This document shows positions 1 to 19,985 of a stretch of DNA of 47,913 bases, piece after piece. The translations under genes and the position numbers were made by a program. Position 1 is the first letter of the stretch. Each line of letters begins with the position of its first letter. The notes under the pieces are model-generated. The model did not search any database. It had not been told where the DNA came from and worked only from the letters and a program-made list of their open reading frames with translations. This DNA comes from Acidobacteriaceae bacterium (GTDB taxonomy: Bacteria; Acidobacteriota; Terriglobia; Terriglobales; Acidobacteriaceae), in contig DAHVZT010000055.1 of NCBI GenBank assembly GCA_027323885.1, positions 1 through 47,913 on the forward strand, read 5' to 3'.

Positions 1-407
1 CGCGGCAAGGCACGCGCCACAGCATCGAGGATTCCGTTTAAGAAATTAATAGATTCCGGCGCGCAATACAGCCTGCCGATCTCAAGCGCCTCATTGATAA
101 TCACCGGCAGCGGCGTGGCCGGATAGCCGAGCATTTCCGCAACCGCCGCCCGGAGCAGGTTGCGGTCAACCGCAGCCATGCGTTCCAGCCGCCAGTGCTC
201 GCTTGCCTTCACGATCAGATCGTCGATCTCGTCCTGCCGGGCCACAGCTACGCGGAACAGATCCTCGCTGAAGCCTTGCGTGGCGGGATCGACATTTTCC
301 CGCGCCTGCCAAAACGTCCGCTGTACTTCGTCGGCATTCTGGCGTCCGACGTCGGCCTGGAACAGCATCTGCATGACCATCTCTCTGGATTTTCGGCGCT
401 TTCCCAT
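1..407 (-). CDS. nusB: Transcription antitermination factor NusB (3' end cut by window edge)
   Basis: NusB binds boxA RNA with NusE (S10) and supports antitermination of rRNA operons. The gene begins with ATG at 407 and runs off the left edge, leaving about 135 residues. The visible C-terminal part has the NusB signature: a run beginning RMAAVDRNLLRAA, then PVIINEALEIG and ESINFLNGILD, which correspond to the conserved INEA...K/R...F.NG.LD helices of the family. The start lies 3 nt after the ribH stop codon at 411-413, so the two genes are almost certainly co-transcribed and translationally linked; ribH-nusB is a widely conserved pair. Only the last few residues are expected to be missing. 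Confidence 0.93.
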   Translation of the reverse strand, partial: MGKRRKSREMVMQMLFQADVGRQNADEVQRTFWQARENVDPATQGFSEDLFRVAVARQDEIDDLIVKASEHWRLERMAAVDRNLLRAAVAEMLGYPATPLPVIINEALEIGRLYCAPESINFLNGILDAVARALP

Positions 408-18610: not shown

Positions 18611-19762
18611 TTACCCACGTATCTCCAGCATACGTGCCAGCGCGATACGGGACCAATGCTTTACATCATCCGCGACGCGGATGCGATTGACAACCCTGCC
18701 CTCCACCAGATTCTCCAGTGCCCAGGCCAGATGCTGCGGCGAAATGCGAAACATCGTCGTGCATAAACAACCCGAGTCATCGAGCGTAATGACTTTTTTG
18801 CCGAGCGGGGCGAAGCGCTTGGCAAGCCGGTTAACCAGATGAATCTCCGTTCCAACCGCAAACATGCTGCCAGCCGGAGCCTCTTCCACGATCTTGATCA
18901 GCCGTTCTGTAGAGCCGATCGCGTCGGCCTTTTCACACACTTCCAGGCGGCACTCCGGATGCACGATGACCTGAATCCCTGGATAGGCGGCGCGAACTTT
19001 GTCGGCATGTTCGGGCAAAAATCTTTGATGCACCGAGCAGTGCCCCTTCCAAAGGATGATGCGCGCGGAGCGCAGCCGATCTGGCGTGAGTCCTCCGTTG
19101 ATCTGGTAGGGATCCCACACCACCGTTTCCGACATCGGAATTCCCATTGCATGCGCGGTGTTGCGTCCCAGGTGCTGGTCCGGCAGAAACAGAATGCGCT
19201 TCGCCCGGGCGAAAGCCCAGTCAAAGGCCGCCCTTGCGTTGGACGAGGTGCAGACCAGCCCGCCACGTTCGCCGCAAAACGCCTTGATGGCAGCGGTGGA
19301 ATTCATATACGTGAGCGGCAGCAGACCTCCCGCGGCATCGCCGTTCAGGCCCGCGGCCTGCAGCTTCGACCAACACTCCTCCACCTGGGAGATGTCCGCC
19401 ATATCGGCCATCGAGCAGCCGGCATTCATATCGGGAAGCACAACGTGCTGGTAGGGCTGCGCGAGAATGTCCGCACTCTCCGCCATAAAATGCACGCCGC
19501 AGAAAAGGATATAACGGCTGCTCGACTCGGAAGCGATCTTCGAGAGCTTGTAGGAATCGCCGGTGAAATCCGCGAAGCGAATGACTTCATCACGCTGATA
19601 ATGATGACCTAGAATCAGCGCATCGGTTCCGAGTTCCGCGCGGGCGGCCGCGATGCGGTCATCCATGGTGTGGTCTGGGAGCGTCAGATAATCATCGAGT
19701 GAGCAGCTGCCTTGCAGCCGTTCCAGGGGCTGGTCCAATACGGACTCAAGTGAAATAGACAC
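18611..19762 (-). CDS. nadA: Quinolinate synthase NadA
   Basis: NadA is the [4Fe-4S] enzyme that condenses iminoaspartate with dihydroxyacetone phosphate to quinolinate in de novo NAD synthesis. The 383-residue protein has all landmarks: ILGHHYQRDEVIRFADFTGDS, FCGVHFMAESADIL, the first cluster cysteine Cys116 in DMNAGCSMAD, YMNSTAAIKAFCG, CTSSNA, DQHLGRNTA, the second cysteine Cys271 in VHPECRLEV, and the last in GCLCTTMF (Cys334). The start is GTG 19762 with GGAAG placed 3-4 nt upstream, immediately after the second riboswitch domain; no in-frame ATG exists before the conserved region. nadB and nadC are not in the window. A DUF2203 gene follows 17 nt downstream. Confidence 0.95.
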   Translation of the reverse strand: MSISLESVLDQPLERLQGSCSLDDYLTLPDHTMDDRIAAARAELGTDALILGHHYQRDEVIRFADFTGDSYKLSKIASESSSRYILFCGVHFMAESADILAQPYQHVVLPDMNAGCSMADMADISQVEECWSKLQAAGLNGDAAGGLLPLTYMNSTAAIKAFCGERGGLVCTSSNARAAFDWAFARAKRILFLPDQHLGRNTAHAMGIPMSETVVWDPYQINGGLTPDRLRSARIILWKGHCSVHQRFLPEHADKVRAAYPGIQVIVHPECRLEVCEKADAIGSTERLIKIVEEAPAGSMFAVGTEIHLVNRLAKRFAPLGKKVITLDDSGCLCTTMFRISPQHLAWALENLVEGRVVNRIRVADDVKHWSRIALARMLEIRG

Positions 19763-19770
19763 TGTCTTCC

Positions 19771-19899
19771 GCCTTCAGTTCCGGGTACGAGTAACGTCCG
19801 GGAACGGGGATGTTGAAAGCATTTCCTTTTGCGTGTTGCAGCGGACTCACTACCCTTCGGCCTTTCCGAAGGGCCCAGTCCGCGGGGATGTTGCAACAC
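19771..19899 (-). ncRNA. NAD+-I riboswitch (nadA motif), two tandem domains
   Basis: Read on the minus strand, the leader of nadA folds into two similar domains. Domain 1 (19899 to 19833): P1 GTGTTGC with GCAACAC, the conserved AACATCCCCG (19892-19883), P2 GCGGACT with AGTCCGC, an apical stem CCCTTCGG/CCGAAGGG, and TAGTGA joining back. Domain 2 (19820 to 19771): P1 GCTTTCA with TGAAGGC, the same AACATCCCCG (19814-19805), P2 GTTCC with GGAAC, and a small inner stem ACG/CGT. This layout and the CAACANCCCCG core match the nadA motif described from Acidobacteriota and shown to bind NAD+. The 3' strand of domain 2 P1 directly abuts the GGAAG ribosome-binding site and GTG start of nadA, which implies translational repression at high NAD+. 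The motif match is from memory, not from a covariance search. Confidence 0.92.
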
Positions 19900-19957: not shown

Positions 19958-19985
19958 ATTGTAATATGCCGCCGTTCCGGAGCAA
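19958..19985 (-). promoter_or_regulatory. Probable nadA promoter
   Basis: On the minus strand TTGCTC (19985-19980) and TACAAT (19963-19958) are 16 nt apart. The predicted start near 19951 gives a leader of about 190 nt that contains the whole riboswitch. A TTGACA just before the riboswitch has no matching -10 at a usual distance. Confidence 0.55.

Follow-up and report, generated by a model that had tools for sequence, protein, structure and literature searches.

Genetic context of the nadA leader

The window, i.e., the whole 47,913-nucleotide stretch of DNA that was analyzed (contig DAHVZT010000055.1 of the Acidobacteriaceae bacterium assembly GCA_027323885.1), carries on its minus strand the quinolinate synthase gene nadA (18611..19762; 383 amino acids, GTG start), the product of which scored 302.5 bits with TIGR00550 (cut-off, 262.9) and 322 bits with PF02445. 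An earlier note on this DNA, made from the sequence alone, had read the segment directly in front of nadA as a two-domain NAD+-I riboswitch and had named a covariance search with the Rfam NAD+-I model as a check. This search, using RF03013 (Rfam nadA, NAD+-I), returned two minus-strand matches, domain 1 at 19898-19834 (61.2 bits; E value, 4.2e−12) and domain 2 at 19820-19771 (44.2 bits; E value, 4.2e−07), both above the gathering score of 37.5. The GTG frame starts 8 bases past the end of domain 2, which, together with a TIGR00550 score over the cut-off, bears out the placement of nadA directly after the riboswitch. No Rfam family other than RF03013 reached its own gathering score within the window, and the rest of the window's genome (152 contigs; 73.6% complete) yielded no further RF03013 match.

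A DUF2203 protein is encoded closely 3′ of nadA on the same strand (18656-18159, minus) and may share its transcript, and tatA (20066) and tatC (∼20697) start divergently on the plus strand. In this genome (G000), nadB was found (533 bits); a nadC match was absent from the 73.6% complete assembly. A strict σ70 scan identified no promoter upstream of the riboswitch. By sequence, a possible −10 element, TACAAT, lies on the minus strand at 19958..19963, 59 nt ahead of domain 1, and, of 116 related loci, 36 have TANAAT, at varied distances, in the 140 nt preceding domain 1, compared with 11.5 expected.

Architecture of the two domains

Domain 1 (19834..19898, minus strand) was delineated by its RF03013 match, the predicted fold, and a segment check. 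Its P1 stem of 7 bp (UGUUGCA/UGCAACA; 19898-19892/19840-19834), to the foot of which the predicted fold adds a G19899-C19833 pair, is followed by the J1 bulge ACAUCCCC (19891-19884; segment check), the 7-bp P1a stem (GCGGACU/AGUCCGC; 19883-19877/19847-19841), termed P2 in the earlier note, and the internal loop J2, made up of GG and AGUG (19876-19875 and 19851-19848; fold and segment check). An apical stem, P1b (19874-19866/19860-19852), with eight Watson-Crick pairs and one G-U pair, closes on the loop AAAGG. The 13-nt linker CGCAAAAGGAAAU (19821..19833, minus strand; segment check) leads into domain 2 (19771..19820, minus strand), which was placed by the same three lines of evidence. Here, the 7-bp P1′ stem includes one U-G pair (GCUUUCA/UGAAGGC; 19820-19814/19777-19771), the J1′ bulge is again ACAUCCCC (19813-19806; segment check), and the P1a′ stem has 5 bp (GUUCC/GGAAC; 19805-19801/19782-19778). 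The top of domain 2 is an irregular short hairpin lacking the AGYG internal loop.

As the earlier note had claimed, an identical AACATCCCCG recurs in each domain (minus strand, 19892-19883 and 19814-19805). In addition, ACANCCCC lies in both tandem bulges (minus strand, 19891-19884 and 19813-19806). The penultimate P1 pair is C-G in both domains (C19893-G19839 and C19815-G19776); this pair (C6-G47) is described as taking the adenine of the ligand (PMC7297122). The domain 1 determinants set out in PMC7297122 and PMC7708056 are present, namely the bulge, the 7-bp P1a, the GYG loop, and the penultimate C-G pair. The RF03013 scores and the folding energy put the element well beyond chance; the 161-nt region folded at −64.8 kcal/mol, whereas shuffled sequences averaged −48.2 kcal/mol (z, −4.4; 0 of 200 as good). 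This predicted fold contains the stems that had been proposed; the earlier coordinates and stem lengths (7 bp for P1, 7 bp for P2, and 8 bp for the apical stem) are therefore right. With two domains over the Rfam threshold, the sequence determinants of domain 1 in place, and NadA encoded by the next gene, the identification as a nadA motif is upheld.

Conservation of the domains among relatives

For comparison, a set of 124 loci was assembled from 103 of the 107 genomes of the window's family with hits (G016, G030, G033, and G101 were left out), one second locus, 18 loci from a phylum search, and two sub-threshold loci. Of these, 119 were parsed as tandem, giving 118 distinct sequences. The five that dropped out were L308, in which domain 2 is cut off by the end of the contig, L316, which contains a run of N, L345, with a 71-nt apical stretch over the length limit, and the two sub-threshold loci, L351 and L352. 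By cmscan, L345 is a tandem motif too, with the 71-nt stretch in the apical part of its first domain (8-144, plus strand). To be accepted by the parser, a sequence had to show the bulge pattern (with some other bases tolerated at C13 and C14), a TCA ahead of the second bulge, and a 3′ arm of the form CUGRRRGC. The conservation of these positions is thus in part built in, whereas the first four letters of GCUUUCA (GCUU) were left free.

Across the 118 distinct sequences, P1 and P1a of domain 1 covary with many double changes. Pair 3 of P1 is G-C in 62 and U-G in 50, pair 5 is C-G in 66 and U-A in 36, and pair 3 of P1a is G-C in 61, A-U in 28, and C-G in 22. Roughly folding the apical part gave a P1b of 0 to 20 bp over 117 loci and of 9 bp in the window with the G-U pair included; the 8-bp apical stem of the earlier note is unremarkable. 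Linkers measured 6 to 32 nt among the 118 sequences, and 115 of them fell between 6 and 14 nt. Of 115 sequences, 113, including the window, retain both of the internal-loop residues G36 and G38, and only L338 and L342 do not; this count omits L043, L049, and L346, with fewer than six P1a pairs. Some first domains are unusual: that of L346 (864-906, minus strand), at 31.7 bits, has no internal loop, and in those of L342, L343, and L347 an apical stem is all but missing by eye.

A different pattern was seen in domain 2, the P1 of which is kept in sequence, whereas that of domain 1 is kept only in pairing. The 5′ arm of P1′ was GCUUUCA in 118 of 118 parsed sequences, and the dropped loci L345, L316, and L308 also have GCTTTCA before the second bulge. 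None of the seven P1′ pairs showed a double change; the 3′ strand varies between A and G opposite U, and pair 5 is a U-G wobble in 94 of 118. G was found at both places of the G36/G38 register in only 16 of 118 second domains, and the register was absent in 102, including the window, in line with the J1-J2 contact reported as missing from the published domain 2 structure (PMC7708056). At the fourth position of the bulge, a free base, U was present in 110 of 118 sequences in domain 2 versus 67 of 118 in domain 1. Within the alternatives that the parser admitted, C13 of domain 2 was replaced by U in 5 of 117 (L027, L030, L283, L304, and L330) and by A in 2 of 117 (L291 and L324), and C13 of domain 1 by U in 2 of 117. 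As C13A in either domain is reported to impair repression (PMC10702441), the natural domain 2 variants constitute a test set for this effect.

Likely ribosome-binding site and expression platform

The best duplex with the anti-Shine-Dalgarno tail (−7.4 kcal/mol, for a canonical tail that may differ from this genome's own) was formed by GAAGGCGGA (19776-19768, minus strand). This likely Shine-Dalgarno sequence has six of its nine nucleotides inside the 3′ arm of P1′ and ends 5 nt ahead of the GTG at 19762, and it replaces the GGAAG of the earlier note (19770-19766, just outside P1′). Starts were assignable in 117 of the 118 distinct sequences (L014 was excluded), with the first candidate taken in the 40 that had more than one, and in 112 of these 117 loci the best site had at least 3 of its nucleotides within the 3′ arm of P1′. 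Two further summaries, an "inside better or equal" count (66 of 117) and a "downstream" mean energy, were dropped because energies are undefined for very short stretches.

On the minus strand, a pattern scan between 19700 and 20150 returned nothing resembling a terminator. Together with a ribosome site lying partly in P1′, this fits control by a block of translation, as had been suggested for this locus and as is the published view of the nadA motif (PMC7297122; PMC7708056). On the plus strand, the pattern scan picked out, within the riboswitch (19806-19826), a stem that resembles a terminator and has a T-rich tail; two sites of this kind occurred in the 451 bases, against a shuffle mean of 0.6. 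A leader peptide was considered and rejected. It would begin at the AUG of AAAUGCUUUCA, run for 15 codons (19822-19775, minus strand), and stop at the UGA within the 3′ arm of P1′; 74 of 117 loci have a start codon at this place, yet their UGA is scattered over the three frames (26/25/23).

Distribution and nadA lineages

Within the family to which the window belongs, the motif is frequent, with 107 of 150 genomes over the cut-off (the genome of the window counted), although the filters of this survey lose weak matches. Two matches were found in 102 genomes, one in four, and four in one (G086). Among the single-match genomes (G096, G101, G122, and G145), G122 proved to be tandem after all, the match of G145 is cut short where its contig stops, and G096 contains a run of N. 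The two tandem motifs of G086 (L298 and L313) are similar but not identical and lie on two contigs, perhaps reflecting mixed strains or two nadA copies. In the phylum draw, 36 of 396 genomes were above the cut-off, every one of them in the window's family. Sub-threshold hits outside the family (27.7 bits; L351 and L352, from G407 and G258) were judged to be due to chance; they run antisense inside frames that, read from their translations, encode an M16-type peptidase and a MerR-type regulator.

NadA was encoded 3′ of the motif in 117 of 117 loci tested. It was also searched for in 26 motif-less genomes. Three belong to the same class, and 23 are family members, of which 19 came from the 20 motif-less genomes listed by the family survey (23 others being left out) and four from the phylum draw. 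No NadA match was obtained in 16 of the 23 family genomes searched, a short, weak match only in G010, and partial matches in the three genomes of the same class. The remaining six family genomes (G064, G095, G031, G443, G116, and G435; loci L353 to L358) encode a NadA 50 to 54% identical to that of the window, and RF03013 had no match in these nadA loci even at an E value of 0.1. In their N-terminal part, NadA proteins encoded after the motif share 64.1% or more identity with that of the window; this is a different stretch, which makes the comparison with 50 to 54% a rough one. On these figures, the motif seems to go with one nadA lineage, and L353 to L358 seem to represent a different lineage without the switch.

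A 310-base piece of L016 (G040) recurs letter for letter in L093, from Acidobacteriaceae bacterium KBS 83, the source given for the published domain 2 crystal (PMC7708056). A loose DNA pattern of the tandem arrangement matched at least 120 stretches of public genomes and 107 stretches of viral contigs. Among the 227 pattern loci listed (L055 to L281), GCTTTCA preceded the second bulge in six (L072, L090, L093, L120, L128, and L172), five of which are named, as a Granulicella, two Acidobacteriaceae, an Edaphobacter, and an Acidobacteriota metagenome-assembled genome; the viral set (107 stretches) held no GCTTTCA locus among the matches listed. L058, L062, and L173, which had come from a first arm test, do not have the conserved CA and were taken as chance matches, and 15 pairs lay too close to the locus end for the arm test. 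Rows with many regularly spaced matches (e.g., L058 and L122) look like repeat arrays.

Proposed mechanism and alternatives

The element is an ordinary, intact-looking copy of an already described RNA switch, and we are all but certain that it belongs to the NAD+-I (nadA motif) class and represses nadA. Most likely, it senses NAD+ or its ADP part and turns down nadA translation, and NAD+ synthesis in the window's genome is most likely riboswitch controlled at nadA. Ligand binding and repression by this particular copy are what we infer from the published work on its relatives. Domain 1 would bind the ADP part of NAD+ (or ATP or ADP) in a pocket formed by P1 and the ACAUCCCC bulge, which contacts of C13 with G38 and of C14 with G36 in the internal loop would hold in place. 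The ligand-bound domain 1 would then favor P1′ of domain 2, pairing GCUUUCA with UGAAGGC and burying part of the Shine-Dalgarno sequence, so that nadA translation would fall when the ligand is plentiful. That liganded domain 1 promotes P1′ and thereby hides the ribosome site is the model put forward in PMC10702441, where the full-length RNA is reported to bind one ligand per RNA, with a KD of 31.5 μM for NAD+ and 11.0 μM for ATP.

A simple two-state switch is disfavored by energy-based folding without ligand, in which P1′ already formed with a pair probability of 0.82 to 0.84 in the window and of at least 0.5 in 76 of 117 loci, so that no clear ligand-free alternative fold is visible. A conserved alternative partner of GCUUUCA in the leader was likewise not found, with six or more contiguous pairs in 49 of 117 loci versus 86.9 in shuffles, which were unmasked around the stem itself. 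A competing hairpin between the linker and the 5′ arm of P1′ was not established and is a weak lead. For 102 unique linkers, the mean pairing energy with the 5′ arm was −1.14 kcal/mol versus −0.61 kcal/mol for shuffles (reached in 0 of 200). With 71 linker cluster representatives, the mean was reached by 0 of 300 plain shuffles, by 2 of 300 when the first two and the last base were fixed, and by 16 of 300 when the first two and last two were fixed; in this last case, 42 linkers were at or below −0.5 kcal/mol, against 30.7 expected (standard deviation, 3.5). Permuting the letters of the P1′ arm reached the linker pairing mean in 84 of 300, and such a hairpin is worth about −1 kcal/mol against −17 kcal/mol for the window's domain 2. 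Given that P1′ is predicted to form without ligand and no competing helix was established, the coupling of the domains probably lies in tertiary structure or in the order of folding.

Several other readings were weighed. That the match belongs to another riboswitch class or variant, such as the ubiB variant or NAD+-II, has a negligible probability; the 5′ domain of the ubiB variant is indeed similar (PMC7297122), but the bulged domain 2, the nadA gene, and the want of any other Rfam family at its gathering score in the window refute it on anatomy. Very improbable, too, is a relic that has retained its pairing and lost its response. The absence of a visible ligand-free alternative fold and a domain 2 score just 6.7 bits above the threshold would suit such a relic, but the determinants of domain 1 are intact, the same-genus genome G062 has a similar domain 2 (45.2 bits), and the 5′ arm of P1′ is identical in all 118 sequences.

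A more serious contender, to which we give a minor share, is the arrangement proposed in PMC7708056, in which the domains bind separately and domain 1 responds at low concentrations, with domain 2, at millimolar concentrations, being the real trigger. In its favor, domain 2 retains the pocket, both its J1 bulge and its A-U and C-G pairs (mostly letters that the search pattern required), and that of KBS 83 is reported as crystallized with NAD+ (PMC7708056); against this, 102 of 118 second domains, among them that of the window, lack the G36/G38 register, and the account in PMC10702441 gives no binding by the isolated domain 2 and a single ligand per full-length RNA. Slightly less probable again is a switch that senses the adenylate pool (ATP and ADP) rather than NAD+ and so ties an early step of NAD+ synthesis to the energy state. 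The full-length RNA is reported not to discriminate against ATP, which binds as tightly as ADP, with NAD+ somewhat less tight (PMC10702441), so that cells may be signaling through more than NAD+, and domain 1 is described as recognizing only the ADP part (PMC7297122). However, the motif is said in PMC7708056 never to accompany ATP or ADP synthesis genes, NadA came next in 117 of 117 loci, and the search of the window's genome (73.6% complete) turned up no other copy. The near certainty given above covers class membership and nadA repression, within which these last two readings are submodels.

The invariant strand of P1′ is the point worth experimental work, as its conservation offers bases for probing the role of domain 2 and the way in which one ligand would control the ribosome site. 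Part of this conservation is explained by the ribosome site in the 3′ arm and by the capacity of U to pair with either purine, but the ribosome site does not by itself explain why U is never replaced by C opposite G in 94 sequences. From the alignment, in which counts ignore relatedness, the invariance could reflect a stem that is kept weak or one that makes a further contact. It is conceivable, albeit unlikely, that the 5′ strand of P1′ is more than an anti-Shine-Dalgarno arm and has a second sequence-specific partner, for example by docking with domain 1 in its liganded state, or that P1′ is tuned to be just weak enough; this would supply the missing link between one ligand in domain 1 and the ribosome site of domain 2. 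The invariance of P1′ is not claimed as new, and the published >97% consensus (PMC7297122, legend) may already show it.

Comparison with known systems

The window copy shares with NAD+-I as described (RF03013; PMC7297122, PMC7708056) the tandem bulged stem-loops with ACANCCCC in each, a domain 1 with a 7-bp P1a and an AGYG loop, a ribosome site in P1′, nadA downstream, and a host among the Acidobacteriaceae. Its differences are immaterial and consist of its own stem sequences, its apical stem of 8 bp (9 with the G-U pair), and its 13-nt linker, all within the range of its relatives. The 5′ domain of the ubiB variant (PMC7297122) is alike, with an 8-nt bulge and an internal loop 7 bp apart, but its domain 2 is an uninterrupted 11-bp stem, whereas that of the window has an 8-nt bulge and the gene is nadA. 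NAD+-II (pnuC motif; PMC7749635) has in common the link to NAD+ metabolism; it is found in a pnuC context and is described as binding NAD+ via the nicotinamide riboside side (PMC10702441), whereas in the window only RF03013 matched at gathering level and the gene is nadA. The tandem glycine riboswitch, an analogy drawn in PMC10702441, likewise has two homologous domains, of which the second carries the expression platform, but it responds to another ligand and binds one per aptamer, whereas one ligand per RNA is the reported measurement for NAD+-I.
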